Source of the DNA: Archangium sp.
GTDB lineage: Bacteria > Myxococcota > Myxococcia > Myxococcales > Myxococcaceae
Direction of reading: 5' to 3'
NCBI GenBank assembly: GCA_030695565.1
Contig: JAUYRZ010000110.1
Span: forward strand, 1 to 64,000
DNA length: 64,000 bases
The notes below the pieces were generated by a model. It was not told where the DNA came from, did no database searches, and worked only from the letters and a program-made list of their open reading frames with translations. Positions 15,891 to 63,100 of the stretch are shown piece after piece (within the stretch, counting starts at the first letter, position 1; every line of letters starts with the position of its first letter). The position numbers and the translations under genes are program-made.

Positions 15891-15894
15891 TTCG

Positions 15895-26297: not shown

Positions 26298-26636
26298 ATG
26301 AAGAAGGTCCTCGGTACCCTCACCGCCGTCACGCTGGCCGTCGTCGCTGGTCTCTCGTTGGCCGCCGAGGCCGGCGGTTCGTTCAGCAAGTCGAGCTGCA
26401 CGTTCAACGGCAAGAAGCTCTACGGCAACATCCAGGAAGTGACCTCGTTCCCCGACGTGAAGGTGCAGGTCGTCAACTCCTTCCCCGACGTGAAGGTGAA
26501 GAAGGTCAGCTCGTTCCCGGACAAGTGCGGCATGTGGAAGATGGTCACCAGCTTCCCGGACACCAAGGTGCAGTTCGTCACCTCGTTCCCCGACGTGAAG
26601 ATTCAGTACGTCGATTCTTTCCCCGGCGCGAACTGA
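26298..26636 (+). CDS. Secreted protein with six 11-residue SFPD repeats
   Basis: A GGAGA site at 26288 precedes ATG 26298. Residues 1-24 are a signal peptide (MKKVLGTLTAVTLAVVAGLSLAAEA). From residue about 47, the motif V-x-SFPD-x-K-V recurs six times with spacing 11, 11, 13, 11 and 11 residues. The longer interval contains Cys in DKCGMWK, which may pair with the Cys in SSCTFNG. Alternating hydrophobic residues (VKVQVV, VKIQYV) suggest a small beta solenoid or meander. It ends 3 bases before the CsgG-like gene, so it heads the glt-like operon. I have seen similar repeats in unannotated proteins but know no function. Confidence 0.75.
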   Translation: MKKVLGTLTAVTLAVVAGLSLAAEAGGSFSKSSCTFNGKKLYGNIQEVTSFPDVKVQVVNSFPDVKVKKVSSFPDKCGMWKMVTSFPDTKVQFVTSFPDVKIQYVDSFPGAN

Positions 26637-26639
26637 ACG

Positions 26640-28814: not shown

Positions 28815-28877
28815 TGTGGGTGCCCTGCTTCGGTTGGCATGCACGCGAGCGTCTGACCGTCTACGCTGCGCCCACTC

Positions 28878-30176: not shown

Positions 30177-30230
30177 GCCCTCACCCTGACCCACCCTGAC
30201 CCTCTCCCGGCGGGCCCGGCGGGAGAGGGG
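30177..30230. repeat. Dispersed palindromic repeat, copy 7 (longest)
   Basis: The lead CCCTCACCCTGACC is partly duplicated (CACCCTGACC twice), followed by CCTCTCCCGGCGGG and CCCGGCGGGAGAGGGG. It lies between the lipoprotein stop and the first small GltF-like gene. Confidence 0.85.
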
Positions 30231-30262
30231 AACTGCTCCAGGTTCACTTGCGTTTGAGCGTC

Positions 30263-30499: not shown

Positions 30500-30619
30500 C
30501 ACCTTTCTCACAGTGTGAGACCTGACCATCTGAAGCTTGGGATTTGCGGTTGGGCGGGGAGTGGTAGCATCCTCCCGCTCGCCCAACGCACCGGGCCAAA
30601 GGGATTCGCCGGAGGATTC

Positions 30620-30868
30620 ATGAAGAAGGCACTGGGTTTGACGATCGCGCTGTCATTTGCACTGCCCGCATTCGCTCAGGACAAGGGCGGGGGCGTCACC
30701 TACAAGAAGCAGACTGAGTACTCGTTCGAAGACGACACCATCGAAGGCGACTTGACGAAGCCCGACGGCGAATACGTCGAGGCCCGCAAGAAGGTGAAGC
30801 ACTCGAACCTGATCAAGATTCGCGAAGAGTTCAAAGACAAGGTCATGCAGTCCGTCGGCGAGCTCTGA
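30620..30868 (+). CDS. gltF: Small exported gliding-type protein, GltF/CglF-like
   Basis: A GGAGGA site at 30611 precedes ATG 30620; the product has 82 residues. The signal peptide is MKKALGLTIALSFALPAFA, cleaved before QDKGG. The mature part is charged and ends LIKIREEFKDKVMQSVGEL. It is directly upstream of gltG, the position of gltF (cglF) in M. xanthus, whose product belongs to the gliding machinery. Identification rests on position, size, export signal and the paralogue 120 bases upstream. Confidence 0.7.
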   Translation: MKKALGLTIALSFALPAFAQDKGGGVTYKKQTEYSFEDDTIEGDLTKPDGEYVEARKKVKHSNLIKIREEFKDKVMQSVGEL

Positions 30869-30942
30869 ACTTTTTGGGTCGGGAACCCGGCGTGATGCCG
30901 GCTGTCTGACCGCGTGACGCCCTTTTTCCCCGGAGGCCCCTC

Positions 30943-32853
30943 GTGGCTGTTCCACTGACTTTGAAGGTTTTCAAAGGTGACGAGCTGGTCGTCGCCAAAG
31001 ATTACGACCGCGACATCATCAAGATCGGTCGCCTGTCCTCCGCTCACCTCTGCCTGGATGACGAGAAGGTCTCGCGCATCCACTCCGTGATCGAAGTCGC
31101 TCCCGACGGCAGCCTGTCCATCATCGACATGGGCAGCGTCGAAGGCACCTTCGTCAACGGCAAGCGCGTCAACAAGGGCGCGCTCCAGTTCGGCGACGAG
31201 GTGAAGGTCGGCAACACCACCATCAAGGTCGAAGCCGCCGGTGCCGCGCCGTCCATCGCGCCCAGCGCTCCCTCCGTGGCTGCCGTCGCCGCCGCGCCTG
31301 CCGAAGTCGCCGCGCCCATGGTCGTGCCGGTGGCCGTCCCCGTCGTTCAGGCAGCCGTGGTGCAGCAGGTCGTTCAGCAGGTGCCGGTGCAGGCGCCTCC
31401 GGTCGCCCGCCAGCCGCCCCCGCCGCCGCCCTCCGCCGTGTTGGACGAAGCGACCGGCGCCTCGGTGCGTTCGCGCCCCCGCCGCCGCAAGGGCAGTGGC
31501 CCGCTGGGTGTCGAGCTGCGTTTCCTCTGGGGTGACCAGATGGTGGGTGAGTACTTCCTCCACCCCGATGTCGAGCGCACCTTCACCGTCGGCACCACCG
31601 CCAAGTCGCACTTCAACATGGGCGACTCGAAGTTCGGCGCGCCCACCTTCGACCTGGTTCGTTTCGGTAAGGCCGGCGCGAGCCTGCGCTTCACCTCGAA
31701 GATGAACGGTGAGCTGCAGCGCAAGTTCGGCGAAGAGACGATGACGCTCGACGAGGCGAAGAAGAAGAACATCGCCACCGCTGACGGCGACGGCCTGGTG
31801 CTCACGCTCCAGCACGAAGACTTCGCGTGGATCGATCTCGGCGGCATCGTGGTCGAGGTGTTCTTCCAGCCCCAGCCCAAGGCCGTGTTCGTGCCTTTCG
31901 CGGAGTCGGTCGACTTCACCGTCCTCAACATCTTCCTGTTGATGTTCTTCATCGCGGCGCTCTTCGTGATCAGCGCGGCGAACCTGAACGCAGAAGGTGA
32001 GGCCTTCGACGACGAGCTCAACTCCAACTCGGCGCGCATCGCCAAGCTGCTGATCAAGCCGCCCGAGAAGAACCCCATTCTTCAGAAGTTCGAGAAGAAG
32101 AAGGACTCCGGCGAAGTCGCCCAGAAGCACAAGGACAGCGAAGGGCAGATGGGCAAGAAGGAGGCGCCCAAACGTTCTGCGCACGCGGCGCCCAAGGGCG
32201 ACCCGAACAACAAGGATCAGGCGCGGCTCCTCGTGGCCAAGGTGTTCGGCGGCACGGGCGGCGGCATCTCCACCATCTTCGGCCACCAGGGGCTCGGCGG
32301 TGAGCTGAAGAGCGCGATGGGCAACATGTTCGGCGCAGCGGCCGGCGACTCCGGCGGCTTCGGCGGCCTGGGCTTGCGTGGCTCGGGCTCAGGTGGTGGC
32401 GGCGTGGGTGACACCGTGGGCATCGGCGGCATCGGCACCAAGGGTCGTGGCGGCGGCACCGGCGGTTACGGTTCTGGCGTCGGCGTGCTGGGCGGCAAGA
32501 AAGACATCGACATCGGCATCACCTCGTCTGAGCCGATGGTCATGGGTTCGCTCGACAAGGAACTCATCCGCAAGGTCATTCACGCCAACCGCGGCCAGAT
32601 TCGCTACTGCTACGAGAGCCAGCTGAACCGGTTCCCCAAGCTCAATGGCAAGGTGGCGGTGAAGTTCATCATCTCGCCCACGGGCTCGGTGTCGACGTCG
32701 TCGGTCGCGCAGACCACCGTGGGTAATGCGGAGCTCGAGGCCTGTGTCGCCGGCCGCGTTCGCACCTGGACGTTCCCCAAGCCGAAGGGCGGAGGCGTGG
32801 TGATCGTGACGTACCCGTTCATCTTCGCGCAGTCCGGCGGGCAGGGCGGGTAA
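30943..32853 (+). CDS. gltG: Gliding-machinery inner-membrane protein GltG (FHA - TM - TonB-C)
   Basis: A GGAGG at 30932 serves GTG 30943, giving 636 residues. An FHA domain occupies about 20-95 (IGRLSSAHLCLDDEKVSRIHSVI, SVEGTFVNGKRV) with the phosphopeptide-binding GR, S-R-x-H and N residues. A Pro/Ala linker, a second beta domain (about 185-320) and one TM helix (FTVLNIFLLMFFIAALFVISA, about 323-346) follow. The periplasmic part has a Gly-rich stretch and an AgmX/PglI TonB-like domain (IRYCYESQLNRFPKLNGKVAVKF...RTWTFP, about 540-630). This matches GltG/PglI of the Glt complex, which couples the inner-membrane motor to the periplasm. Confidence 0.88.
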   Translation: MAVPLTLKVFKGDELVVAKDYDRDIIKIGRLSSAHLCLDDEKVSRIHSVIEVAPDGSLSIIDMGSVEGTFVNGKRVNKGALQFGDEVKVGNTTIKVEAAGAAPSIAPSAPSVAAVAAAPAEVAAPMVVPVAVPVVQAAVVQQVVQQVPVQAPPVARQPPPPPPSAVLDEATGASVRSRPRRRKGSGPLGVELRFLWGDQMVGEYFLHPDVERTFTVGTTAKSHFNMGDSKFGAPTFDLVRFGKAGASLRFTSKMNGELQRKFGEETMTLDEAKKKNIATADGDGLVLTLQHEDFAWIDLGGIVVEVFFQPQPKAVFVPFAESVDFTVLNIFLLMFFIAALFVISAANLNAEGEAFDDELNSNSARIAKLLIKPPEKNPILQKFEKKKDSGEVAQKHKDSEGQMGKKEAPKRSAHAAPKGDPNNKDQARLLVAKVFGGTGGGISTIFGHQGLGGELKSAMGNMFGAAAGDSGGFGGLGLRGSGSGGGGVGDTVGIGGIGTKGRGGGTGGYGSGVGVLGGKKDIDIGITSSEPMVMGSLDKELIRKVIHANRGQIRYCYESQLNRFPKLNGKVAVKFIISPTGSVSTSSVAQTTVGNAELEACVAGRVRTWTFPKPKGGGVVIVTYPFIFAQSGGQGG

Positions 32854-32869
32854 GCGTTTCCTGAGTTCG

Positions 32870-32905
32870 GCCCCCGTCTCCATCTGGAGGCGGGGGCTTT
32901 TTTTT
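32870..32905 (+). terminator. Strong intrinsic terminator between gltG and the beta-barrel gene
   Basis: GCCCCCGTCTCC and GGAGGCGGGGGC form a long GC stem around ATCT, followed directly by eight T residues. It is the best terminator in the window and divides the glt-like cluster into at least two transcription units. Confidence 0.9.
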
Positions 32906-32961
32906 CGCGCGCTCTGTGTTCTTTCCTCACCGCCCATTCGCTGGGTTAGGGTGCAGCCCGC

Positions 32962-33591
32962 ATGAAGCGCTTCTCTTCGCTGGGTGTGATCGTTGCGTTG
33001 GCCTCCTCCTTCGCGTTGGCGCAGACCGCCGCGCCCAAGCTCGAGGACAAGAAGGCGGTCAAGTACAACGAGATCGAGCGGGGCTTCTTCTTCGAAGGCC
33101 GTGGCGGTTTCTTCGGCGTGATCAACCCGCCCACGCTCTCTGGCGGGCGCTCGTACTTCTCGGCCGGCCAGGCCATCGGGCTCGACATGGGCGTGGACAT
33201 CGGAGAGCGCGTCTCTCCGAGCCTCTTCCTGCTCGCGTCGTCGAACCGCATGCTCAGCGACTACACCGGGCTGAGCACCACGGGCGCGGCCTCGGGTGAC
33301 TTCGGCGCGATCACCCCTGGCGTGGCGGTGAAGATTCGCCTGGTCGGCCTGGCCGACTCGCAAGACGTGCAGCGCACCTGGGTCTACGTGCGGGCAGCGG
33401 GTGGCGTGGTGTTCTACAGCCCGCAGTCGTTGCTCCCCACGCTCGACGTGATGATCTCCGGCGGCGCGGGCATCGAGTACTTCACCCGCCTGCGTCACTT
33501 CGTGATCGGCGTGGAGGCGAACTTCAACTTCATGGCGCTGACCCAATCGGTGGGCTTCTCGGTGCTGCCGACCGTGAAGTACGCCTTCTGA
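32962..33591 (+). CDS. gltH: Outer-membrane beta-barrel, GltH/CglE-like
   Basis: The 209-residue product has a signal peptide (MKRFSSLGVIVALASSFALA) and alternating amphipathic strands (FFFEGRGGFFGVI, AIGLDMGVDIGERVSPSLFLLAS, HFVIGVEANFNFMAL). It ends in a C-terminal aromatic residue (VKYAF), as BAM-dependent barrels do. An eight-strand barrel is plausible from its length. It sits between gltG and gltI, where M. xanthus has gltH (cglE), an outer-membrane component of the gliding complex. The strong terminator upstream implies its own promoter, which I could not define. Confidence 0.75.
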   Translation: MKRFSSLGVIVALASSFALAQTAAPKLEDKKAVKYNEIERGFFFEGRGGFFGVINPPTLSGGRSYFSAGQAIGLDMGVDIGERVSPSLFLLASSNRMLSDYTGLSTTGAASGDFGAITPGVAVKIRLVGLADSQDVQRTWVYVRAAGGVVFYSPQSLLPTLDVMISGGAGIEYFTRLRHFVIGVEANFNFMALTQSVGFSVLPTVKYAF

Positions 33592-33700
33592 GCGTCACCC
33601 GGTAAACCGGCCCTTGACGGGGCGTGCTGTCACCTGACAAGGCAACGTCTCGCGACTGGCACTCACGCCGGTCGATGCACTTTTCACGAGCGAGAGCACC

Positions 33701-35551
33701 ATGACGGTCGACAACAACGCGAAGGGCCCCGGGCAGGGTCGCAGTGGCAACGGGTTTTCTTTCGATGACGCTCGCGAGGGCGGTCGTGGTGGCAAGGGCG
33801 GCCCCGGCGGCGGTCGTGGTGGCCCGGGCGGCGGCCGCGGTGGTCCGGGTGGCGGGCGTGGTGGCCCCGGTGGCGGGCGTGGTGACCGTCGCGAAGGCGG
33901 CGGCAACAGCGGCGCGTACCGGGTGGTCAACGAGCTGAGCTCGCTCGAGAAGGCCCTCACCAAGTCTGACGTCATCGCCATGAAGGAGCCGCTGTCGGCG
34001 GTGCTCAAGGCGGTCAAGCCGCTGCGCCTGAAGAACCTCGAGGCGCTCGACATCGGCACCCGCGGCAAGCTGATCACCTCGCTCATGCGCGCACAGCGCC
34101 TGCCCAAGCCGGCGCCCTCCGAGACGCCTGTCGCTGAAGCGCCCGCGGCTGAAGCCGCTCCGGTGGAGGCGCCCGTCGAGGCCGCCGCTCCTACCGAAGG
34201 TGACGCGGCGCCCGCTGAAGCGGCGGCGCCTGTCGAAGCCGCTGCGCCTGCCGCTCCTGCGGCGCCCGCCGTCGATCCGAGGATCGCCGCGTGGACCGAG
34301 AACCAGTTCACCGTCGGCCTCATCTGGTCGTCGATGAACGAGGCGGATCGCGCGAAGACGGCGTTCGAGAACGCCGGCCGTCAGCCCACCGAGGCCGACC
34401 TGGCGGTGCCCGCGCACGTCGAGCGCGCTCCTGAAGCGCCCCGCGGTGCGCGCCCCGAGCGTGGTGGTGCCCGTTCGGCTTCGGCCCGTGGTGATCGCCC
34501 CGAGCGTGGTGGTGCCCGCACCGATCGGCCCGCCCGCCCGACCCGCCCCGAGCGCCCTGTTCCCTTCGTTTCGTCGGGTGACTGGCAGGTCGACGTGAAG
34601 ACCCTCGAGACGGCCGGCCGCACGCGTGACGCCGCCCGCATTCACGAGAAGAACAAGTCGTTCGCCGACGCGCTGCGCCTGTACGAGGCCGGCGGTGACT
34701 TCAAGTCTGCGCTGCGCAACGCCGCGCTGGGCAAGGTCGACGAGGCGTTCACCCGTCTGTCGGCCAAGCTCAAGCCCGACGAGATGATCGAAGCGCTCGA
34801 GCGCGCCGAAGCGTGGGAGAAGCTGATGGAGTTCCACGTCGCCCGTGCCGACTTCGACTCGATCGCCAAGCTCTACGAGCGCGCTGCGCAGTTCGACCAG
34901 GCGGGTCTTGCCTGGGAGCGCGCGGGCAAACTCTCGCTGGCGCGCAAGGCGTACGAGCGTGCGCGTGATGCAGGTTCAGCGCACCGCGTTCGTGACCTCG
35001 AAGTGGTCAAGCTCATCGAGCGCGGCGATCGCCTCGGCGCGGCCACCCTCCAGGTCAGCGGCGGCAAGAAGGCCGAAGCCCTCGAGACCCTCAAGCCGTT
35101 GCCGGGCCCCAAGGCGTTCCACTTCATGCAGAAGCTGAAGATGACGGCCGAGGCCGATGCCTTCGCGAAGGCGGAGCTGGCCAAGGCCGAAGCCGAGAAC
35201 AACCCCGTGCAGCGCGCGCGTTGGCTCGAGCTGCTGGGCCGTCTGCCCGAAGCGGCCGAGGTGTACCTGGCCGCAGATCGGAAGGACAAGGCCGCGTTCG
35301 TGTTCGAGGCCATGGGCGATCTGAAGAAGGCCGCCGAGCTCCTCGAGGCGGCAGGTCAGCTCGACAAGGCGCAGGCGCTCTTCACCAAGCAGGGCGACAC
35401 CGCCAACGCCGAGCGCGTCAAGGCGCTGCCCCGCCCGGAGCCCAAGCCGAAGTCGGCCGCGGCCGTCGCGGAAGAGGCTGAAGACGCAGCGGCGATGCCG
35501 CCCCCGGAGGCTGCCCCGTCGAACGGGCCGACTCCCGGCGCAAACGCCTGA
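33701..35551 (+). CDS. TPR protein with GGPGGGR repeats and Ala/Pro-rich linkers (glt cluster)
   Basis: The 616-residue cytoplasmic-looking protein (no signal peptide) has four perfect GGPGGGR repeats at residues 33-60. A conserved helical segment follows (YRVVNELSSLEKALTKSDVIAMKEPL), then a 70-residue Ala/Pro/Glu linker and a Gly/Arg/Pro linker. From about residue 300 to 590 it has degenerate TPRs (KLYERAAQFDQAGLAWERAGKLSLARKAYERARDAGS). It occupies the place between gltH and gltI, where M. xanthus has uncharacterised genes. The arginine-glycine stretch could bind RNA or protein; this is inference. Confidence 0.75.
   Translation: MTVDNNAKGPGQGRSGNGFSFDDAREGGRGGKGGPGGGRGGPGGGRGGPGGGRGGPGGGRGDRREGGGNSGAYRVVNELSSLEKALTKSDVIAMKEPLSAVLKAVKPLRLKNLEALDIGTRGKLITSLMRAQRLPKPAPSETPVAEAPAAEAAPVEAPVEAAAPTEGDAAPAEAAAPVEAAAPAAPAAPAVDPRIAAWTENQFTVGLIWSSMNEADRAKTAFENAGRQPTEADLAVPAHVERAPEAPRGARPERGGARSASARGDRPERGGARTDRPARPTRPERPVPFVSSGDWQVDVKTLETAGRTRDAARIHEKNKSFADALRLYEAGGDFKSALRNAALGKVDEAFTRLSAKLKPDEMIEALERAEAWEKLMEFHVARADFDSIAKLYERAAQFDQAGLAWERAGKLSLARKAYERARDAGSAHRVRDLEVVKLIERGDRLGAATLQVSGGKKAEALETLKPLPGPKAFHFMQKLKMTAEADAFAKAELAKAEAENNPVQRARWLELLGRLPEAAEVYLAADRKDKAAFVFEAMGDLKKAAELLEAAGQLDKAQALFTKQGDTANAERVKALPRPEPKPKSAAAVAEEAEDAAAMPPPEAAPSNGPTPGANA
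33797..33880 (+). repeat. Tandem 21-bp repeat, four units, in frame
   Basis: Four 21-bp units encode GGPGGGR four times. The units differ mostly at third codon positions (GGC/GGT, CGT/CGC). Such in-frame repeats can expand or contract without a frameshift. Confidence 0.8.
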
Positions 35552-35601
35552 AAACCTCGTCTTGTTGGGGGCGTGCGGGCTAAAGTCCCGCCCGCTCCCA
35601 C

Positions 35602-38600: not shown

Positions 38601-41600
38601 CTACGGCGAAGTGCTCGCCAGCAAACCGTCGGACGCTGATGCATTGGCGGCGCTGGAGAACCTGCTCACCGACCCCACGCACCGGGAAGCCGCGGCGCGG
38701 GCCCTGTTGCCCGCTTACGAAGCAGCCAAGGATCACCGCAAGCAGGTCGGTGTGCTGGCGTTGATCGCCGAGGCCGCGAAGGACTCCCTCGAGCGGATCA
38801 CCGCGCTCAAACGCGCTGCCGAGTTGCACACCGTGCACCTGCGCCAGCCCGAGCAGGCGTTCGCTTCTCTCGCCACGGCCATGCGCCTGGTGCCGGAAGA
38901 CGCGGACATTCGGGCCAGTGCACGCGCCGCGGCCGACGACGCCGATGCGCTCGACAGCTACGCCGAGGTGCTCGAGGAGATCATCGAGGTGGGCGCCGAG
39001 TCGGTGGCCATCGCGCTGCATCGCGAGCTGGCCGACGTCTACGAGAAGAAGCTGAACAAGCAAGACGACGCCGTGAAGCACCTGCGCGCCGTGTTGCTGC
39101 TCGACGCCAAACACCTCGAGGCGCTCCGTTCGTTGCAGCGCCTGCACCGCACCCGAGAGGAGTACCAGGAGCTGGTGCCGGTCATCGAGCGGTTGGCGGT
39201 GATGGAGGCCGACCCCGCCGCGCGCTCTGCGCTCGATCGGGAAGCGGCCGTGTTGTCGGAGCAGAAGCTCGACGATCTCGAACGCGCTGCGGGCAACTGG
39301 AGACAGATCGCCGCGCGTGACGTGCTCGCGCGTGAAGCGGCCACGGCCCTCGACCGGCTCTACGCCGAGCTCGACAAGCCGCAGGAGCTCGCCTTCGCGC
39401 TGGAGCTGCGCCGCAATCAGGAAGGGCAGAGCCCCCAGGGGCGTGAGCTCGCGTTTCGCCTGGCGGCGCTGCGACAGAACCGGCTCAACGATCCGCGGGG
39501 TGCGCTCGAGGTGTACCGGCAGATCCTCAGCGAAGATCCCACGCACGAAGGTACCCGCGAGGCGCTCGAAGGGTGGGCTCGGGGAAACGATCCCGAGAGC
39601 TCGGCCGCTGCGGAGATCCTCGACGCGGTGCTCTCGCGCACCGGCGATCACCAGCGCCGCATCGCCATTCGTGAAGCGCGCCTGGTGCATGCCACCTCGC
39701 AGACCGAGCGGGCCCGCATCACGGGTGAGATCCGCGCGATCCTCGAGCGCGATCTGAGCCAGCCGGAGGCCGCGTTCATGAACGCGCTCAAGGCCTTCAC
39801 CGACGGCCTCGACCGCGACGCGGTGCAGCCTGAGCTGGAGCGTCTCGCGCGCGTCACCGGATCGTTCGGTGAACTGGCGGAGATCTTCGAGTCGACGGTG
39901 GAAGAGCTGCCCGCGGGCGACGAGCACGTGGTGCCGTTGCTGCGCCGCGCGGCCGAGCTGCGTGAGCAGCTGGCCGAGCCCGAAGACGCCACGCGCGTCT
40001 GGAGGCAGTTGCTCGAGCACCTCCCGCAGGATCGGCAGGCCCTCGACAGCCTCTCCCGGCTCTACGAGAAGTCGAAGAACGCTAAGAGCCTGTCAGACGT
40101 GTACGCCAAGCAGGCGGCGCTCGCGGGAGACCCGGGCACCCGCTTCGAGCTGCTGCTCAAGGCCGGCGACGCCTTCGAATCGGCCGGCGACGACGCCCAG
40201 GCCATCGAGTCGCTCAAGCAGGCGCTGGCCATCAACCGTTCGCGCGACGTGTTGATCACGCTCGAACGTTTGTTCGGCAAGACCCGCCGCGTGCTGGAGC
40301 AGGCCGACGTGCTCTCCCAGCTCGCGGAGACCGCGGCCGACGACGCCGACAAGCTGCAGCAGATCGTCAAACGCGGCCTCATCCTCGAGAAGGAAGCGCA
40401 ACACGCCGAGGCGCTGCGTGCGTTCGGCGCTGCTTTTCAGCTCTCCAGGACCGAGCCGCAGAGCATCGCCGCGCTCGAGCGGTTGCTCACCGTCGAGAGC
40501 GCCAAGATGGAAGCGGCGCGACTGCTCGAAGGCGCCTTCCGCGAGCTCAACGATCTGCGCCGGCTGGTCGAGGTGCTCGACGTACGCCTCGCCGCCGCCG
40601 AACCGACCCAGCGCATTCCGGTGCTGATCGAGATCGCCAACCTGCGCGAAGCGGTCGGCCAGAAGAACCTCGCGCTCACCGCCCGTCTCCGCGCCTTTGG
40701 AGAGAAGCCCGATCACGCCGAGGTGAGGGAAGAGCTCGAGCGCCTGGCCGCTGATCTCGGCGCCTTCGAAGAGCTCACGGCCGCCTACGAAGACGCGCTG
40801 GAGCGCGGCATCGCAGAGCCCCTGGCCGGTGAGCTGTGGCGCCGCCTGGCGGTGGTCTACGGCGACCGTCTTTCCCGCTTCGATCTCGCCGCGCGCGCGT
40901 GGAACGAAGTGCTCGCCCGCAACCCGAAAGAGATGTTCGTGCTCGAGCAACTCGGGCGCATCTTCCGGCGCACGTCTCAGTTCCGCGAGCTGTCGATCGT
41001 GATGCGGCGGCAGTTGGGGCTGGAGACCAACATCACCATGCAGGTGAACCTGCTCTTCGAGCTGGCGAACCTCGCCGAAGAGACGCTCTCCGACAAGGCG
41101 CTGGCAGCGCAGTGCTACCAGGCCGTGTTGGAGCGCAAACCGGAGGAGCCGAACGCGACGCGTTTCCTCGCGCGCATCCTCTCGGAGACGGAAGCGTGGC
41201 CGGAGCTCGCGGTGTTGCTGGGCCGCGAGATTCAGCACGCGGAAGCGCGGCAACAAGAAGAGCAGGCGCTGGAGTTGTACGTGCGGCTCGGCCGCTTGAA
41301 GCTCACCCGTCTGAGTGACCCCCGTGGGGCCCTCACGACGTTTCAGGAGGTATTGCGCCGGAAGCCCGCTCACGCGGGCGCGGTCGGCGCACTCGAAGAA
41401 ATGGCGCGCTCAGAAAATCCATTGAAGGGCGAGGCAGCCAGCACGCTGGAGCCAGTCTTCGCCGGTGAAGGTGAACACCTCAAGTTGGTGCAGATGCTGG
41501 AGGCCCGGGTCGCGGCAGAACCGCAAGCGACCGAGCGGGCAGGGCACCTGCGCAAGATGGCCGAGGTGTATTCGGCGCAGCTCGACAACGCCGAGATGGC

Positions 41601-44600
41601 CTTCGTGGCCGCCGCCCGGGCGTTGCGTGAGCTGCCTGACGAGCCTTCGAACCTCGAGCTGGTGTTGAGCTTCTACAAGAAGGCCGACGCTGAAGACGAG
41701 ATGGCGTCGCTGCTCACCGAGGTCGCGCCGCGCGCATCGAACGACGCGGCCCGCGCGAATCTCTACCGGGCACTGGCGCGGCTGCAGGCGCAAGCGGACG
41801 AGGAGCAGGAGGCGATCGAGTCGTGGAAGCGGGTGATGGAGCTGGTGCCCACCGACGCCGAAGCGATGCAGCAGATGGGTCAGCTCTTCTCACGGCAGGG
41901 CCGGGTGAACGAGCTGCTCGAGGTGCTCAAGCGCCAGCTGACCATCGAAGAAGACACCGGCCGCCGCGCCGCGTTGCTCTTTCAGATCGGCACGCTGCAG
42001 GAAGAGACGCTCAAGGACGCGAACACGGCCATCGGTACCTTCCGCCGCCTGCTCGAGCTGCAGCCCGACGACGTGAACGCGCTGAGCCGCATGGAGCGGC
42101 TGACTGAGCAGCAGCAGCGCTGGCCCGAGCTCGCCGACGTGTTGTCGCGCCGCCTGCGCGTGTTGCCGCCCGAAGAGCAGGCCGCGGTCACCTTCAAGCT
42201 CGCCGTGGTGCGCGAGACCCGGCTGTTGGACAAGCAGGGCGCGCTCGATCTCTACCGTGAGCTGCTCGCGCAGAACGCGCGCAATGAAGGCGCGCTCCAG
42301 CGCATGGACGCGTTGGTGCAGAAGGAGCCGCAGAACCAGCAGGCCTTCGAGATTCTCGCCGGCGCCTACCGCGCGTCGAGCGACATGGATCGGCTCTCGC
42401 AGCTGATCGAAGGCCGGGTGGGGGTCTCGCCCGATCAGATCGAACGCAAGACGCTGCTGACCGAACTCGCTTCCTTGCGGGCCGCGCAAGCCGAGCCCGA
42501 GCTGGCGTACCTGGCGTACTGGCGCGCGTTCAAGGAAGACCCGAACGACGCTCAGATCCGCAAGAGCCTCTACGCCGCGGGTGCAGCCGCCGCTTCGTTC
42601 GACGAGCTGGTGGGCGCGCTGCAGGCCGAGTTGCCCCGCCTCTCCGAGCCGCACGACGTGGCCGAAGTGTGCATGGTGGTAGCGCAGATCTCCGAGCAGC
42701 GCCTCGACGAGAAGGAGCAGGCCGTCGTCTTCTACGAGAAGGCTCGCACCGCTCACGCCGAGACCGCGCAGAAGGCGCTGCCCGCGCTCGATCGCCTCTA
42801 CGGCGAGCTCGAGTTCCCCGATCAGCAGGCCGAGGTGATCGAAGCCCAGGCCGCCATGGCCACCGAACCCATCGATCGCGTGGGGCTCTACTTCCGCCTC
42901 GGCCAGATCGCGATGGAGTCGCTCGACAACCCCGATCGTGCTGCCGGCGCCTTCGAGAAGGTGCTGGAGGCCGAGCCGAAACACCTGCCGTCGTTGCGTT
43001 CGCTGGAGATCCTCTACGAGCAGGCCAAGAGCATGGACAAGCTCTACCGCGTGCTCGAGGCCCAGCGAGAGCTGGTGCAGGGCGCTGAGAAGGAGCGGCT
43101 GCTCGGAAAGATGGCGGTCACGTCATCCGAAGGGCAGGGCAACATCGAGCACTCGATCAAGCTCTACCGTGAGCTGCTCGAGAAGAACCCGCGCAACGAG
43201 CAGGCCTTCGAGGCGCTGACCAAGTTGCTGGAGCGCGGTCAGAAGGCCGAAGAGCTGCGCGAGCTGCTCCAGTGGAAGCTGCAGTTCACCGTCGACCCGC
43301 GCGAGCTGGTGCGGCTCAACGAGCGGCTGGGCAGGGTGCTCTGGCAGCAGCTCGACCGCGCCGAAGAGGCCGTGCCGTTCTTCAAGGCGGCCCTCGAGCG
43401 TGACGCGCGTCACCGCGGTGCGTTGGAGGCGCTGCGCGACATCTTCGATGCCTTAGGCAAACGCGAAGACCTGGTCATCGTGCTGCGCCGCCTCATTCCG
43501 CTCCAGGAAGACGCGAGTGGGGTGAAGCAGATCCGCATTCGGCTGGCGGAGATCATCGCCGAGACGGCGCGACGCGAAGAGTCGCTCGACGCCGCCCGCC
43601 GCGCGCTGGAGGTCGAGCCGCACCAGTTGCCCGATCTCGAGCGCCTGCACACGGTGTTCATGAAGTTGAAGGCCTGGCCCGACGCGGTGCGGACGCTCGA
43701 GCAGAAGGTCGCGGTGCAGCTGCAGCTCGAAGAGCGTGAAGCGGCCGCGCAGACGATGTTCCAGGTCGCGGAGATCTGGCGTGGCCCCGCAGCCAAGGCC
43801 GACATGGCCGGCGCCGCGCTCGAGCGCGTGCTGGAGATCGAGCCCTCGAACAAGCAGGCCTACGAGCAGGCGCTCGAGCTGTTCAGCAAGTTGAACGACT
43901 GGCGCAGCTACGCCCAGGCGATGGACAGGTACCTGCCGAACCTCCACACCGACGAAGAGAAGGTCGTCGCGCTGCGAGAGCTCGCGCGGGTGCAGGAGCA
44001 GAAGTTGGGCGCCCGCCAGGTGGCGTTTCTCCAGTACTGCCGTGCGTTGCAGCTGACGCCTTCCAACGACGAGATCCGCGAGCAGGTCGAGCGCCTCGCC
44101 GAAGAGACCGGCAGCTACGAAGAGCTCGCCGCGGTCTACGAAGAGATCGCCGAGACGGTGCCGCGTGGCCCATTGGCCGAGCGGCTCTACCTCACGCTCT
44201 CGAAGGTGCAGGACACCAAGCTCGACGATCCTTCAGCGGCCGAGTCGTCGCTGCGGCGGATCCTCGAGTTCGATCCCACCAACGATCAGGCGCTGGAGCG
44301 CCTCGGCGCGATGTTCGCCCGCCGTGGCCAGAACAAGGAGTACGTGGTCTCGCTCGAGCAGAAGCTCGAGGCCGCCGGCAGCATCGAGCGGCGCAAGGAG
44401 ATCCTCCGCGAGATCGCCCGCGTCTACGACGAGCAGATGGGCAACCCCGACGAGGCCGAGAACGCGCTGGTGCGCGCGCTCGAGCTCGAACCGGATCTCG
44501 ATACGCTCGGCGTGCTCGTCACCCTGCAGCGCCGCGTGGGCAATCACCAGGCGGTGGCCAGCACGTTGATGCGCATGCGCGACATCGCGCCCACCCCGGA

Positions 44601-47600
44601 AGATCGGGCGCGGCTGCAGGTCGAGGTCGCGCAGGTCTACGAGCGTGAGCTCCAGGACGACGAGGCCGCGGTCGAAGGCTACCGGCAGGCGCTCGAGTTC
44701 GACCCTGCCAACCCGCAGGCGCTCGCTTCGTTGGAGCAGCTCTACAGCAAGCTCGATCGCCCGGCCGAGTTGCTCGCCGTGTACGAGCGGCAGATCGAGC
44801 TGACCTCGGACTACCGCGAGCGGGTGAAGATCCTCTTCCGCTCGGCGGCGATCTGGGAAGAGCGGTACCAGAACCTCGGCCACGCAGACGCCTGCATCGA
44901 AGCGGCGCTGCAGGTCGACCCGCAGAACATTCAGGCCATCAAGACGCTCGAGCGCCTGCGCAAGTCGCAAGGCCGTTGGGACGAGCTCATCGGCGTGGTC
45001 GACCGTCACATTCAGCTGCTCACCAACCCCGCTGAGAAGGCGGAGCTGTGCGTGGAGATGGGCGACATCTTCCACCAGCAGTTGAAGGCGGTGGACCGCG
45101 CGGTGACCGCCTACCACCAGGCGATCGAGCTCGATCCCCGCTGCCGCCCCGCGATGCACGCCCTGGGCATGTTGTACGAACGCTCGGGCAACTGGCCTTT
45201 CGCGCTCGACATGCTGGAGCGTGAAGCGCAGGTGCTGGGCCAGACGCCTGAAGCGGTCGAGCTCTGGTACCGCATGGGCAAGATCAACGAAGACATGTTG
45301 ATCGACGCGGGCAGCGCCAAACGTTGTTACCTCGAGGCCCTGCGCGTCGACGCGGCGTACCTGCCGGCGATTCGCGCGCTCAAGGGCATCTACGAGCTCG
45401 AGCGCGACTTCGACAGCTACGAGAAGGCGCTCATCGAAGAAGCGCGGCAGACCGAAGAGCCGCAGGCGCGCAGCAAGGCGTTCGTGGCGGTCGGCCAGTA
45501 CTACGAGAGCAAAGAGGATCGCGACCAGGCCACCGGCTACTACGAGGAGGCGCTCAAGCTGCAGGCCGACTCCCTCGAAGCGGCGCAGCCCCTGGCCGAC
45601 ATCTACCTCTCCACCGAGCGCTACGATCGCTGCGAGCAGATGCTCGACATCGTCACGCACAAGCTCGGGCAGCAGTACCAGTCGATGCCCGACGATCCAG
45701 AGCTGGGGCGCGAGCTGTGCCGCCGCCAGTACCGCCTGGGTTACGTCTCGGAGAAGAACGGCAAGCGCGAGAAGGCGCTCACCGCGTACGAGCGCGCCTA
45801 CCAGCTCGACGCGACGTACCTGCCGGTGCTCGAGGGCTACGGCAACCTGCTGGTGCACGCCAAGCGGCTCGAAGAAGCGCAGCGGGTGTACCAGTCGATC
45901 CTCGTTCACCACCGCGGCGACCTGACCGATCTCGAGGTGGCGGAGATCTACTGGACGCTCGGTGAGCTCCACATGAGCCTGCGCCAGTTCGACCGCGCGC
46001 AGAATCACTTCGAGAAGGCGCTGGCCATCGACCCCAGCCACGAGCCGTCACTGCGCTCGATGGTGGGGCTGGCCGAGCAGGCGCAGCAGTTCGATCGCGC
46101 CGTCACCTTCCGCCAGAAGCTGGTGGAGACGCTCGACGGTGAGGCCAAGTTCGAGGCCGGCGTGGCGCTCGGTGCGCTCGCGCGCGACAAGCTGTCGGAC
46201 CCCTACATCGCCATCGACGCCTACCTCGCCTCGCACCGCATCCGGCAAGACGCGCTCGACGTGATGGACGCGCTCTACGTGCTCTACCGGGAGACCAGGC
46301 AGGGCGCGAAGGCCAGCGAGATGCTGGAGAAGATGCTCGCCGTGCCCGAGCTGCTCGCGGATGGACCGCGGGCCAAGCGGGTGTGGTTCGCGCTCGGTGA
46401 GATCAACCGCGACGAGCTGGGCGAGGTCGACGTAGCGGCCAGGTGCTTCAACTCGGCCCTCGACGTCGACTGGCACTTCATCGACGCGTTCGCTGCGTTG
46501 GAGAAGATGCTGGGCCGGGCCAAGAAGTGGCAGCAGCTCGACGAAAACTACAAGCGCATGATCGGGCGCATCCCCAAGACGCCCGAGACGCACCAGGTGC
46601 GCATGAACCTGTGGAAGGCGCTGGGCGATCTGTACCTCAACGCGCTCAAGGCGCCGGAAGCCGCGGTGCAGGTCTACAAGGTGGTCGCTTCAGGTCTGCC
46701 CGACAACGTGGAGATCCAGGAGCTGTACGCGGGGCTCGCGCAGAACCAGGTCGGCTACGAGCAGGAGGCCGTCGATGCGTGGCGCCGGGCGCTCCCGTCG
46801 ACCACCAGCCCGGGCAAGGTGGCCTCGGCGCTGGCCGAGCTGGCGGCGAAGCGGAAGGACTACGACTCGGCGTGGATCGCAGCGCAGGTGATGGCGGGGC
46901 TCATCGGAGATCCCGGCCCCGGCGAGAAGGAGATCCTCACCAAGCTGACCCCGTACGCGAAGAAGCGCGAAGTGGCGCAGCGGCAGCTCACCGATCGTCT
47001 GTGGACCGAACATCTCTTCCACCCGAAGGTGCGCGGACCGTTGTCGGATCTCTTCGCGATCCTCTTCGAGCAGGCGGGCACGCTCTACAAAGAAGACTTC
47101 ACTCGCTACGGCATCGTGCCCAAAAAGCACTTCATCGACGTGGCGAGCGCGCCCGAATACCAGATTCATCACTACCGGTACGTCTCGCGCATCCTCGGCA
47201 TGGATCAGGTGGCGGTGTTCTCTCCGTTCTTGATCACCACGCGCGAGCGCATGGCCAAGCGCACCACCGAGCCCGCGCCCGACCCGATGGTGGGCGTGGA
47301 GATCTGTCACACCGATCCGGTCGCGCTCCGCTTCGGCGGGAAGTTCTTCAGCGAGACGGGGCAGCGCGAGGTCTACTACCTGCTCGGCCGCACCATGACG
47401 ATGCTGCGCCCCGAGCTGGCGCTCACGCAGCGGCTGTCGGGTGAGCGGCTCGAGGCCGTGATGCAGGCGGCGATCAGCCTCTCGGTCGACCGGTTCCGCT
47501 TCACGGCGGATCTCCGGGCCATCGACACCGAGCGAAAGCTGCTCGAGAAACACCTCACGCCGCAGGCCCGCGACGCGCTGGCACGCGTCACCCGCGAGTA

Positions 47601-47853
47601 CGTGAAGATCGCCACGCCCAACGACTTGAGGAACTTCCTCGAAGGCGCAGAGCTCTCGGCCACCCGGGCCGGTGCGTTCGTCGCCGGTGAGATCGAGCCC
47701 GTCAAACGCATGGTGATGGCCGAGACGGGGCCGAACTTCAGGGTTCAGCCGCGGTCGAAGATCCGCGACCTGTTGGTGTTCGCGTTGGGCGAAGACCTCC
47801 ACGCCCTGCGCGTTGCGGTAGGCATCAACGTCGAGGTCCAACTGCGCAAGTAG
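35602..47853 (+). CDS. gltI: Giant TPR protein GltI (AgmK-like), 4083 aa
   Basis: The single open frame of 4083 codons encodes an almost continuous array of degenerate TPRs. Examples are AEELFRRALIYSPNAREALEGL near the N-terminus and ALTAYERAYQLDATYLPVLEGYGNLL far downstream. There is no signal peptide or TM helix, so it is probably cytoplasmic. The last 270 residues form a different domain (from FHPKVRGPLSDLFAILFEQAG to GINVEVQLRK) without TPR periodicity. Size, TPR content and its place before gltJ match GltI/AgmK of M. xanthus, a very large TPR protein of the gliding complex. No frameshift is visible over 12 kb. Confidence 0.88.
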   Translation: MSNTPEKPFGEVEASLEKTGRVDELIKLYESRSREVPKAEEAAHLLCRAADLCREKLKNPVRAEELFRRALIYSPNAREALEGLRGIYEGRSDAAALGEVLERLALVQSGPAAAALYLRAGELYETKLQRRDRAVLCYQLASRAAPQERAAYQKARKLLLAEGRHASGFDSLERERAALGDRELLEEYVSFAESLVGFPQEHALATKALVRALAVDGKNARAAAIQKDLTKLEYVWRDKVKQLKSQSLEERDRRVAARMSLQVARLYAFYEPGAVDKVKEAIERCFALWPAMPDALDLLEQVATKAGDVRVALTVFSKLAGDTRDKQAKVDLHLRIGQVLLSKLNDQQGASDAFEEAAKLDPARPDAAELASEALISVGKLAEGMAVLERHLVTIKDKSAQVALRLNLADLTQKLLKDLNASRGHVEAAQRTDPNNAQVAYRLVALYADDGNLEALWPLLELAASAPRPIADRVSLCELVAMLCDDRGDPKRAFHALSLALPLDPARTTLLASLVEAAQKAAAQPQLALALRRSAQVAPPEAQASLWRTLGKVLQSLGRPAEAQEAWLEVQKRHVDDPEATTALTAMRKALAEEPQDPRSKLEAEARKLEASAADPASAAGVYRKILELDPDSVQTLKKLGAASANLGLWEEVAVVAERLLALADSPAERQEWRARLAQLYAERLNRREEAVKLYLNLLDEGNDSAAVVGGLERLASQGVRQGDISRALAPVYAKAGDYQRQVASLLVQLSSVQDRDEQKNLLTLLAETTEKRLIDERAAFDLRLRGLALDPADTAFRAEALRLGRALKAEQELARTFTELAVKSEDATLTVSLLLEASELAEEVGAIDEAATSLKRGLEKTVDQPELLLRLSELYLMAKRWSDCDQVLRRRLSLATTDDEKISLGLQLTQVNSELDRPREAASALAEAIKAGAPEADHLPRLGQLLEQGGQLRELTQVQSRLIALYEQAGEKDKAQALTMTRARLLETALGDKAEAITRYGEVLASKPSDADALAALENLLTDPTHREAAARALLPAYEAAKDHRKQVGVLALIAEAAKDSLERITALKRAAELHTVHLRQPEQAFASLATAMRLVPEDADIRASARAAADDADALDSYAEVLEEIIEVGAESVAIALHRELADVYEKKLNKQDDAVKHLRAVLLLDAKHLEALRSLQRLHRTREEYQELVPVIERLAVMEADPAARSALDREAAVLSEQKLDDLERAAGNWRQIAARDVLAREAATALDRLYAELDKPQELAFALELRRNQEGQSPQGRELAFRLAALRQNRLNDPRGALEVYRQILSEDPTHEGTREALEGWARGNDPESSAAAEILDAVLSRTGDHQRRIAIREARLVHATSQTERARITGEIRAILERDLSQPEAAFMNALKAFTDGLDRDAVQPELERLARVTGSFGELAEIFESTVEELPAGDEHVVPLLRRAAELREQLAEPEDATRVWRQLLEHLPQDRQALDSLSRLYEKSKNAKSLSDVYAKQAALAGDPGTRFELLLKAGDAFESAGDDAQAIESLKQALAINRSRDVLITLERLFGKTRRVLEQADVLSQLAETAADDADKLQQIVKRGLILEKEAQHAEALRAFGAAFQLSRTEPQSIAALERLLTVESAKMEAARLLEGAFRELNDLRRLVEVLDVRLAAAEPTQRIPVLIEIANLREAVGQKNLALTARLRAFGEKPDHAEVREELERLAADLGAFEELTAAYEDALERGIAEPLAGELWRRLAVVYGDRLSRFDLAARAWNEVLARNPKEMFVLEQLGRIFRRTSQFRELSIVMRRQLGLETNITMQVNLLFELANLAEETLSDKALAAQCYQAVLERKPEEPNATRFLARILSETEAWPELAVLLGREIQHAEARQQEEQALELYVRLGRLKLTRLSDPRGALTTFQEVLRRKPAHAGAVGALEEMARSENPLKGEAASTLEPVFAGEGEHLKLVQMLEARVAAEPQATERAGHLRKMAEVYSAQLDNAEMAFVAAARALRELPDEPSNLELVLSFYKKADAEDEMASLLTEVAPRASNDAARANLYRALARLQAQADEEQEAIESWKRVMELVPTDAEAMQQMGQLFSRQGRVNELLEVLKRQLTIEEDTGRRAALLFQIGTLQEETLKDANTAIGTFRRLLELQPDDVNALSRMERLTEQQQRWPELADVLSRRLRVLPPEEQAAVTFKLAVVRETRLLDKQGALDLYRELLAQNARNEGALQRMDALVQKEPQNQQAFEILAGAYRASSDMDRLSQLIEGRVGVSPDQIERKTLLTELASLRAAQAEPELAYLAYWRAFKEDPNDAQIRKSLYAAGAAAASFDELVGALQAELPRLSEPHDVAEVCMVVAQISEQRLDEKEQAVVFYEKARTAHAETAQKALPALDRLYGELEFPDQQAEVIEAQAAMATEPIDRVGLYFRLGQIAMESLDNPDRAAGAFEKVLEAEPKHLPSLRSLEILYEQAKSMDKLYRVLEAQRELVQGAEKERLLGKMAVTSSEGQGNIEHSIKLYRELLEKNPRNEQAFEALTKLLERGQKAEELRELLQWKLQFTVDPRELVRLNERLGRVLWQQLDRAEEAVPFFKAALERDARHRGALEALRDIFDALGKREDLVIVLRRLIPLQEDASGVKQIRIRLAEIIAETARREESLDAARRALEVEPHQLPDLERLHTVFMKLKAWPDAVRTLEQKVAVQLQLEEREAAAQTMFQVAEIWRGPAAKADMAGAALERVLEIEPSNKQAYEQALELFSKLNDWRSYAQAMDRYLPNLHTDEEKVVALRELARVQEQKLGARQVAFLQYCRALQLTPSNDEIREQVERLAEETGSYEELAAVYEEIAETVPRGPLAERLYLTLSKVQDTKLDDPSAAESSLRRILEFDPTNDQALERLGAMFARRGQNKEYVVSLEQKLEAAGSIERRKEILREIARVYDEQMGNPDEAENALVRALELEPDLDTLGVLVTLQRRVGNHQAVASTLMRMRDIAPTPEDRARLQVEVAQVYERELQDDEAAVEGYRQALEFDPANPQALASLEQLYSKLDRPAELLAVYERQIELTSDYRERVKILFRSAAIWEERYQNLGHADACIEAALQVDPQNIQAIKTLERLRKSQGRWDELIGVVDRHIQLLTNPAEKAELCVEMGDIFHQQLKAVDRAVTAYHQAIELDPRCRPAMHALGMLYERSGNWPFALDMLEREAQVLGQTPEAVELWYRMGKINEDMLIDAGSAKRCYLEALRVDAAYLPAIRALKGIYELERDFDSYEKALIEEARQTEEPQARSKAFVAVGQYYESKEDRDQATGYYEEALKLQADSLEAAQPLADIYLSTERYDRCEQMLDIVTHKLGQQYQSMPDDPELGRELCRRQYRLGYVSEKNGKREKALTAYERAYQLDATYLPVLEGYGNLLVHAKRLEEAQRVYQSILVHHRGDLTDLEVAEIYWTLGELHMSLRQFDRAQNHFEKALAIDPSHEPSLRSMVGLAEQAQQFDRAVTFRQKLVETLDGEAKFEAGVALGALARDKLSDPYIAIDAYLASHRIRQDALDVMDALYVLYRETRQGAKASEMLEKMLAVPELLADGPRAKRVWFALGEINRDELGEVDVAARCFNSALDVDWHFIDAFAALEKMLGRAKKWQQLDENYKRMIGRIPKTPETHQVRMNLWKALGDLYLNALKAPEAAVQVYKVVASGLPDNVEIQELYAGLAQNQVGYEQEAVDAWRRALPSTTSPGKVASALAELAAKRKDYDSAWIAAQVMAGLIGDPGPGEKEILTKLTPYAKKREVAQRQLTDRLWTEHLFHPKVRGPLSDLFAILFEQAGTLYKEDFTRYGIVPKKHFIDVASAPEYQIHHYRYVSRILGMDQVAVFSPFLITTRERMAKRTTEPAPDPMVGVEICHTDPVALRFGGKFFSETGQREVYYLLGRTMTMLRPELALTQRLSGERLEAVMQAAISLSVDRFRFTADLRAIDTERKLLEKHLTPQARDALARVTREYVKIATPNDLRNFLEGAELSATRAGAFVAGEIEPVKRMVMAETGPNFRVQPRSKIRDLLVFALGEDLHALRVAVGINVEVQLRK

Positions 47854-47926
47854 CAGTGATCGTTGAAGGTTTCTGGCGAAGGCGGAGGGCGACGGAACTC
47901 CCGCCGCCCGTCTGGCGTCCGTTGTC

Positions 47927-47955
47927 TTGACCGTTCAGCCTCGTAAACCTAAACT
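47927..47955 (+). promoter_or_regulatory. Candidate sigma-70-type promoter for gltJ
   Basis: TTGACC at 47927-47932 and TAAACT at 47950-47955 are separated by 17 bases in an AT-rich patch (47940-47980) between gltI and gltJ. This would allow gltJ to be expressed separately from gltI. Confidence 0.55.
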
Positions 47956-48030
47956 TTTCAAACGGTTACACGCAGTTCGCACTTTTGACGCGAGCCCTCT
48001 CGCTTCACCTTTTTCGCCCAGGGAATCACC

Positions 48031-50031
48031 ATGCGCTTCGTCTGTGAGAGCTGCCGCGCGCAGTACATGATCAATGACGAGAAGGTCGGACCCAAGGGGG
48101 TCAAGGTCCGCTGCCGCAAGTGCGGCTACGTCATTCTCGTGAAGCGCGCTGACGCTGCGAAGGCCGGTGGGCCCATCGCGATGTCGAACGATCCCGATGA
48201 CGCGCTCGCCACGCAGGTGATGCAGACGCCCCTCGCCGCGGCCGAAGCGACGCTCTCGAATGAAGAGACCGCGGCCGGCGAAGAGATGACGAACCCGGGC
48301 ACGGCGCCTGCGCCTGCGCCGGGTGAAGCCTCGTCGGGCCCGAAAGACAGCTTCTTCGGCGCAGACGAAGACGAGATCGGCGCGGTGTTCGACCAGGTGC
48401 TGAAGACCGGCAATCACGCGACCCACAAGCCCGGAGAAGGTTCGCCTGACGATCGCCAGAGCACGCGGGTGATCGATGCCGACACGGTGCGCAAGCTCGC
48501 CGAAGAATCGAACGGCAAGGAGAAGGCGCCCGAGAAGGCCGAAGAGATCCCCACCACGGATTGGTACGTGGCGATCAACGAGAAGCAGACGGGCCCGCTC
48601 ACGCTGGAGAAGGTCAAAGAGCACTGGGATCGCGGCGAGATCAGCCCCGACTCGTTGTGCTGGCGCGCCGGCTACGACGACTGGATCCCGGTCTCCGACG
48701 TGAAGATGCTCAACTCGGTGCTGGCGCCCAAGCCGCCCAAGCCGATCGTCGTCGCGCCCGCGGCCACCATCACCCAGAGCGGCCCAGCGGTGATGAACGT
48801 GCCGGTGCAGTCTGCGTTCAGCGCAGGCGGCATGGTGCAGACCGTTCAGTCGCAGATGCAGGTGCCGATGTCGGCCGGTGGCATGGGCCCGGAAGAGACG
48901 AACAGCTGGAAGCCTTCGGCTGCGAACTCGCTGGGCAACCTGCTCAAGGACGAGATGGAAGCGCAGGCCCGGCCGCCCCCGAAGCCGCCGCAGGTGGTGG
49001 TCGACGAGCCGCTCAGTGGTGGGCTGCTCGACCTTCCGCACGAAGAGAAGGCGACCAACGGCGCGACTGTGGTGCCGAGCCCCGTGGAGCACCGCGAACC
49101 GGCGCGCCCGGCGCAGCCGCCGGTCAACCCGTACCTGCAGAACCCGGGCGCGACCTACAGCGCTCCGGCGATGACGCAGTACCGGCCCCCGAACAACCGC
49201 AACCTGATGATCGGTGTCGCGGCGGGTGGTGCGGTGATGCTGCTCATCCTGGTCGGGCTCATCGTGTGGCTGGCCACGCGCGCGCCGACGCAGGTCGCGG
49301 TGGTCACGCCGCCGGCTCCGGTCGTGGTGCAGGCCCCCACGCCCACTCCGGTGGCGGTGGCTCCTCAGCCGGTCGCGCCGCAGCCGGCCGCCGTCGCGCC
49401 GGAGAACCCCACGGCTGCCGCGAACCCGGGAACGGCGAACCCGAATCCCACGGCTGTGACGGCTCCTGCGCCCGTCGCGGTGGCTGCCGTCACGCCGCCC
49501 GCGCCTGCGCCGGTGATCCCCAAGAGCAACACCGGTGGCAGCCGCCCCAAGACCAACACCGTTCGCGCGGAGAAGGAGCCGGCGCCCGAACCTGAGCCGA
49601 AGAGGGCCGCGGCCCAGCCCTCCAGCGGTGACGACTTCGACGATGCGTTCGGTGCGCCCAAGAAGACGGTCAAAGAGGAGCCGAAGAGCGAGAAGAAGCA
49701 GCCCGGCTACATTCCTCCCGCGCCGGGCAGCTCGTCGGCCAACGTGAAGGACGCCCTCGAGACCTCCGATGTGATGGAGGTGGTGCTCGCCAACAAGGGC
49801 GCCCTGGGTGAGTGCGTCAAGCAGCAGCGGGCGAAGGACCCGGGGACCTCGGGCAAGCTCCTGATGAAGTGGACGATTCAGACCAGCGGCAAGACCAGCA
49901 ACGTCTCGGTCGCTTCCGATGAGTTCAAGGGCACGCCCATCGCCGGCTGCGTGGGCAACCTGATCAAGGGAATGACCTTCCCGCGCCACAAGAAGCAGGG
50001 CGATCCGATCACGTTCCCCTTCAAGTTCTGA
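48031..50031 (+). CDS. gltJ: Gliding-machinery protein GltJ/AgmX (zinc ribbon - GYF - TM - TonB-C)
   Basis: The 666-residue product starts MRFVCESCRAQYMI: a zinc ribbon with Cys5, Cys8, Cys28 and Cys31. A GYF_2 domain follows at about 176-224 (WYVAINEKQTGPLTLEKVKEHW...LCWRAGYDDWIPV). One TM helix lies at about 391-413 (LMIGVAAGGAVMLLILVGLIVWLA), then a long Pro/Ala periplasmic linker, then the AgmX/PglI C-terminal domain (about 582-666; Cys in LGECVKQQ and AGCVGNLI, ending FPFKF). This exact architecture is GltJ/AgmX, which in M. xanthus links the cytoplasmic MglA-motor module to the outer complex. Confidence 0.92.
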   Translation: MRFVCESCRAQYMINDEKVGPKGVKVRCRKCGYVILVKRADAAKAGGPIAMSNDPDDALATQVMQTPLAAAEATLSNEETAAGEEMTNPGTAPAPAPGEASSGPKDSFFGADEDEIGAVFDQVLKTGNHATHKPGEGSPDDRQSTRVIDADTVRKLAEESNGKEKAPEKAEEIPTTDWYVAINEKQTGPLTLEKVKEHWDRGEISPDSLCWRAGYDDWIPVSDVKMLNSVLAPKPPKPIVVAPAATITQSGPAVMNVPVQSAFSAGGMVQTVQSQMQVPMSAGGMGPEETNSWKPSAANSLGNLLKDEMEAQARPPPKPPQVVVDEPLSGGLLDLPHEEKATNGATVVPSPVEHREPARPAQPPVNPYLQNPGATYSAPAMTQYRPPNNRNLMIGVAAGGAVMLLILVGLIVWLATRAPTQVAVVTPPAPVVVQAPTPTPVAVAPQPVAPQPAAVAPENPTAAANPGTANPNPTAVTAPAPVAVAAVTPPAPAPVIPKSNTGGSRPKTNTVRAEKEPAPEPEPKRAAAQPSSGDDFDDAFGAPKKTVKEEPKSEKKQPGYIPPAPGSSSANVKDALETSDVMEVVLANKGALGECVKQQRAKDPGTSGKLLMKWTIQTSGKTSNVSVASDEFKGTPIAGCVGNLIKGMTFPRHKKQGDPITFPFKF

Positions 50032-59177: not shown

Positions 59178-59250
59178 GGGGGCCTCCGAAGGTGGAACTG
59201 CGCTGAAGCTCACTGCAACGGGCGCTCCGAGGAGGAGCGTCAAAAGGACG

Positions 59251-59283: not shown

Positions 59284-59310
59284 TTCAGTTTTTCAGTTCA
59301 GAAACTCAGC

Positions 59311-60138: not shown

Positions 60139-60196
60139 GGTGTGAACTCCCTTTGGTTGATTCCGTGGGGGCGAACACCGCGTCCGCCTCGGGGAG

Positions 60197-63087: not shown

Positions 63088-63100
63088 CGTGTCCTCTTGA

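Follow-up and report, generated by a model that had tools for sequence, protein, structure and literature searches.

The closest described system is cluster G1 of Myxococcus xanthus (MXAN_4870-4862, gltD-J), as MXAN_4862-4870 were named in the founding paper (PMC3169522). The same paper reports agmV (MXAN_4864/4865), located between gltH and gltI, as a transposon hit, and in the available part of its text, the survey set these genes aside as likely pseudogenes that are probably not actual genes. MXAN_4865 AgmV was listed among the proteins that mass spectrometry identified in outer-membrane vesicles (PMC4158809), and a 2026 review, in its available text, names GltA-K only (PMC13104615). Within the open-licence Myxococcus literature, the name agmV was found only in PMC3169522 and PMC4158809. 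The second related system is the Nfs spore-coat cluster, with the gene order nfsA-H. Its proteins are paralogous to GltA-H and share a motor with Glt, and according to the available part of the paper, paralogues of GltI and GltJ are lacking (PMC3858216).

The DNA analyzed here (the window; bases 1-64000 of contig C121, from a genome of 8.5 Mb in 134 contigs) carries ten genes between 26298 and 50031, all of which are on the plus strand (Table 1). The window shares the order and orientation of gltF, gltG, gltH, agmV, and gltI with cluster G1. The same arrangement was observed in the Myxococcus-like genome G027, where gltJ also lies downstream of gltI, and in M. xanthus AM003 (L153). Unlike cluster G1, the window contains an extra divergent gltF-like gene and other upstream neighbours, and its genome has gltD-gltE on another contig. 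We conclude that the window very probably carries the section of the Agl-Glt gliding machinery (cluster G1) that comprises gltF-G-H-(agmV)-I-J, with gltD-E split off and agmV most likely supplying a cytoplasmic scaffold together with GltI. A glt cluster is itself expected in Myxococcaceae. The locus exists, yet it is shorter and less unusual than the sequence-only reading had claimed: a near-complete locus in one 24-kb run was wrong, since gltD-E are absent from the window, and the label "G2-type" does not agree with the G1 designation in PMC3169522.

Table 1. Genes of the glt locus and its upstream neighbours in the window, with the basis of each assignment
Feature	Coordinates	Strand	Basis
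SFPD-repeat exported small protein, 112 aa	26298..26636	+	translation; no Pfam/NCBIfam family match
CsgG/TPR protein, 724 aa	26640..28814	+	Pfam CsgG 34.1 bits, plus TPR
all-helical putative lipoprotein, 432 aa	28878..30176	+	no family; alignment (invariant Cys22); structure model
gltF-like gene 1, divergent, 78 aa	30263..30499	+	CglF model 20.4 bits, E 3.9e-4
gltF (cglF), 82 aa	30620..30868	+	NF033764 123.7 bits, cut-off 90
gltG (pglI), FHA + TM + TonB/AgmX C-terminal domain, 636 aa	30943..32853	+	NF033760 952.6 bits, cut-off 650
gltH (cglE), predicted outer-membrane protein, 209 aa	32962..33591	+	NF033755 155.3 bits, cut-off 70
agmV, 616 aa	33701..35551	+	conserved intact frame; dN/dS; AF2 solenoid
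gltI (agmK), giant cytoplasmic TPR protein, 4083 aa	35602..47853	+	Pfam TPR; position; homology
gltJ (agmX), MJ0042 zinc ribbon + GYF_2 + TM + AgmX/PglI C-terminal domain, 666 aa	48031..50031	+	NF033761 637.1 bits, cut-off 450; Pfam

An NCBIfam search showed that GltF, GltG, GltH, and GltJ all exceeded the NCBI curated equivalog cut-offs, where the CglF model corresponds to GltF and the CglE model to GltH by position. In GltG, an FHA domain was accompanied by a TM segment around residue 319 and by a C-terminus of the TonB type, and GltJ combined a zinc ribbon and GYF_2 with a TM segment around residue 390 and an AgmX/PglI domain at the C-terminus. The layouts that had been read from the sequence (FHA-TM-TonB-C for GltG, zinc ribbon-GYF-TM-TonB-C for GltJ) were borne out by these domain searches and by the equivalog scores. 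The giant TPR protein taken for GltI was likewise found, adjoining gltJ. No curated GltI model matched it, and its naming was based on size, TPR content, place, and homology to the G027 copy in the equivalent position, to which its first 996 residues were 46.6% identical. Both of the gltF-like genes previously noticed exist. The first is divergent (20.4 bits compared to the cut-off of 90), yet it aligned across the shared C-terminal motif, and such pairs were also present in G003, G005, G030, and G006, as well as in G036 of another family. Judged from sequence, the region 30620-50031 encodes bona fide GltF, GltG, GltH, GltI, and GltJ. Separately, the stretch L126 of G006 carried, immediately behind gltG at the place expected for gltH, a shorter FHA-type gltG-like gene (15136-16437), and the stretch contained none of gltH-J.

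The gliding function of the locus would follow by analogy with M. xanthus. Alternatively, a Glt-like transport cluster could move another cargo, such as a spore-coat or envelope polymer, and have no part in gliding. This is conceivable because Nfs, a close Glt paralogue, moves spore-coat polymer with the same motor (PMC3858216), and because the organism is uncultured. We nevertheless consider it unlikely. GltI and GltJ were both present in the window, whereas Nfs, as described in the available text, has a paralogue of neither, and GltG, GltH, GltF, and GltJ scored above gliding equivalog cut-offs. Phylogenetic analysis of GltG (36 rows, IQ-TREE, LG+C20+F+G4) placed the window protein inside a 15-row Glt clade with a support of 99/96, apart from the Nfs-type rows, in a tree whose long branches, none of which is the window's, may have produced some false joins. 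The GltG homologue on contig C84 of the same genome instead grouped with the eight-gene Nfs-type clusters; as read from gene layouts, this C84 cluster and that of G027 have the eight-gene nfsA-H order. The genome thus has a separate Nfs-type copy, and an Nfs identity of the window cluster was rejected by the tree position of GltG, which lies in the Glt branch as the earlier reading had supposed. Second GltG copies within the Glt branch were also observed in two large-genome members, L094 (G012) and L097 (G033), and represent gltG duplications.

The gene between gltH and gltI, left unnamed in the sequence-only reading, is agmV, which occupies the same place as the published MXAN_4864/4865. In contrast to the pseudogene status given in PMC3169522, AgmV here is a full conserved gene with a single open frame. 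Its solenoid part was found without an internal stop in 31 of the 36 genomes of family f1, which we take as Myxococcaceae, and in all 30 that are at least 90% complete; the five misses (G001, G007, G008, G029, and G031) all fall below 90% completeness. Among 24 genomes outside f1, nine gave weak matches and 15 gave none. A scan queried with AgmV itself, whose counts are therefore not an unbiased frequency, covered 46 named loci. Of these, 45 encoded AgmV in an open frame; 39 of those frames were not truncated by a contig end, gltI followed agmV at 43 loci, and gltH preceded it at 38. M. xanthus AM003 likewise contained a 623-aa open frame between gltH and gltI. The dN/dS values of agmV against three relatives were 0.15, 0.22, and 0.37, compared to 0.20-0.24 for gltH and 0.12-0.28 for gltG, and agmV evolves under purifying selection.

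These results bear on the alternative that agmV is a degenerate gene or non-coding sequence whose frame high G+C has kept open. The dismissal of MXAN_4864/4865 in PMC3169522 and the low-complexity, G+C-rich tail would fit that explanation. It is very unlikely, given the lack of a stop in all 31 family copies found, the open frames at the 45 named loci including M. xanthus AM003, the dN/dS values, the confident solenoid model, and the detection of MXAN_4865 by mass spectrometry (PMC4158809). The pseudogene assignment was therefore rejected. Two side observations concern other sequences that carry agmV. BNCN01000006.1 (L154), titled Comamonas sp. KCTC 72670, has a complete Myxococcus-type gltD-E-F-G-H-agmV-I and is probably a mislabelled or contaminated assembly. 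L231 (G024:C7) belongs to a family member of 2.7 Mb whose codons are less G+C-rich and which retains gltE, gltG, and agmV; GltJ was not found in G024 at E <= 1e-40, and this genome may have a smaller set of gliding genes or a machine in decay.

AgmV consists of a Gly/Arg-rich tail, a small helical domain, an Ala/Pro-rich linker, and an alpha-solenoid. The tail (59% G+R over 73 residues) was disordered in the AF2 model, the solenoid was placed at residues 295-574 with a pLDDT near 90, and AgmV contained no hydrophobic segment. Its PDB matches were generic TPR/alpha-solenoid chains (IFT-A, SPINDLY, LGN, and designed TPRs), with a best Foldseek E of 2.6e-5 at a TM-score of 0.23 and VIA Z up to 10.2, a level common for repeats. 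We read no function from these matches. Homologues of the same layout were identified in six genomes retrieved from other families (f2, f3, f4, and f6), where they lie away from glt wherever a glt cluster was seen, and gltH and gltI directly adjoin without agmV between them in G037, G056, and G043. The unlinked homologues and the gltH-gltI adjacency indicate that agmV seems to have entered the glt cluster in the Myxococcaceae ancestor.

From its place and build, AgmV would most likely be a soluble cytoplasmic scaffold working with GltI. We know of no clean agmV mutant. The fuller proposal has about an even chance of being right. In it, AgmV would be a genuine part of the Myxococcaceae gliding machine beyond GltA-K. 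This soluble alpha-solenoid with a Gly/Arg tail would predate the location of its gene in the cluster, having been inserted between gltH and gltI in the family ancestor, and would act in the cytoplasm as a possibly condensate-forming focal-adhesion scaffold with GltI. The vesicle detection of AgmV (PMC4158809) sits badly with a cytoplasmic role, and the homologues unlinked to glt in other genomes count against a scaffold working with GltI.

The gene order gltD-E-F-G-H-I-J proposed from the sequence held for gltF, gltG, gltH, gltI, and gltJ, but not for gltD and gltE, both of which are on contig C98. There, gltE scored 597 bits compared to a cut-off of 225, and the gltD homologue directly upstream of it showed 53% identity to the Myxococcus-like copy. 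A complete gltD-J operon in the window, with 26640 as gltD and 28878 as gltE, fits the gene count and direction loosely and is scarcely credible, since the true gltD and gltE are on C98, 26640 encodes a CsgG-TPR protein, 28878 encodes a familyless helical protein without a GltE match, and homologues of both lie away from glt in other genomes. Of the three products that might have proved unrelated to Glt, those of 26640 and 28878 did so, whereas that of 32962 is GltH.

The SFPD-repeat gene noticed at the head of the run is present, but it is not part of glt. Copies 88% and 83% identical lie between miaB and CsgG-TPR, apart from glt, in two same-genus genomes, and miaB, SFPD, and CsgG-TPR stand together away from glt in G003 and G005. 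SFPD and CsgG-TPR are therefore passengers from a miaB block that was exchanged into this place. The product of 28878 had no Pfam or NCBIfam match; its all-helical structure model (pLDDT 72) had no PDB match at E <= 0.001, and Cys22 was invariant in the alignment. This putative lipoprotein gene was matched in 28 of 60 relatives and immediately precedes gltF in the split clade alone; it is a neighbour moved beside gltF by rearrangement.

By our reading of the search results, gltE and gltG are adjacent in 27 of the 36 family f1 genomes and split in seven (G000, G001, G003, G004, G005, G018, and G022), with G002 and G007 left unassigned. The lipoprotein gene, or its end in the case of G004, was upstream of gltF/gltG in all seven split genomes. 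In G030 and G006, gltD-E-F1-F2-G comes after three small genes (X, Y, and Z) that were identified from their first residues, and the order in G030 is X-Y-Z-gltD-E-F1-F2-G-H-agmV-I. The X, Y, and Z genes have remained beside gltD-E in the split genomes G003, G005, G022, and G004, and in part, over the stretch fetched, in G018 and G000. The thrS-scp2-caiB-lipoprotein genes form a block separate from glt in G026 and lie just before gltF in G003. Because X-Y-Z stayed with gltD-E and the lipoprotein gene precedes gltF/gltG in the split genomes, the simplest reading is a break between gltE and gltF that left gltF-J behind the thrS-scp2-caiB-lipoprotein block. The window GltG grouped with those of G003, G005, and G022 (support 98/94), which fits one such break event.

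In the window, the miaB-SFPD-CsgG-TPR block runs straight into the lipoprotein gene and gltF, and on contig C112 the genes that lie downstream of CsgG-TPR in G003 abut caiB-scp2-thrS. As read from the contig sequences, a second, later exchange in this genome is indicated, namely a reciprocal swap with junctions on C121 and C112. The reciprocal junctions make an assembly error unlikely, and the odd head of the run as a mere chimeric contig was thought unlikely on the same ground, in an analysis of the assembled contigs. The locus would accordingly have arisen in two steps: the break between gltE and gltF would have parted gltD-gltE from gltF-J in this lineage, and the reciprocal exchange would then have placed miaB-SFPD-CsgG-TPR upstream in this genome.

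The Agl-Glt machine looks near-complete only at the scale of the genome (C98, C119, C30, and C34). The search of the genome for gltABC suggested earlier recovered gltC on C119 (951.5 bits, equivalog cut-off 450), preceded by two OMP_myx_plus beta-barrel genes named by likeness and position. A MotA/TolQ-ExbD-ExbD trio of the R-Q-S type on C30, a candidate for the AglRQS motor (MXAN_6862-6860 in M. xanthus), was 72, 51, and 64% identical to a trio in G027, and its name is based on likeness and position and not on a curated equivalog. On C34, a roadblock-domain protein above the Pfam cut-off lies beside a small GTPase, as mglB-mglA by likeness; the MglB candidate matched a Thermus-type model at 89.3 bits, short of the cut-off of 200, and the GTPase matched a general model, also below cut-off. 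The gliding system is ordinary overall. By analogy with M. xanthus, where reviews describe the motor and the GltI/GltJ coupling (PMC12288465, PMC13104615), the proton-driven motor AglRQS would contact GltG in the inner membrane. On its cytoplasmic face, GltI and GltJ would link the motor to MglA and to the platform of MreB and AglZ, and GltF and GltH would act together with GltA to GltE in transmitting force to the cell surface at focal adhesions.

We also observed a flagellar cluster on the minus strand (57831-63844) that continues in C121:64001-69800 (L054). It lies some 8 kb downstream of gltJ, on the far side of an ffh-like gene (53960-55609). Its content was FliD-, flagellin-, FlgL-, and FlgK-like by reading, with FlgI and an FlgE/F/G-type rod protein identified by Pfam. 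To our knowledge, gliding and flagellar genes side by side would be unexpected in Myxococcaceae. The flagellar genes offer the organism another motility option, which counts against the gliding reading.

The break between gltE and gltF means that gltD-E and gltF-J need not form one transcription unit. Furthermore, agmV is conserved and intact inside the cluster, so that the recognised set of gliding components may lack one member.
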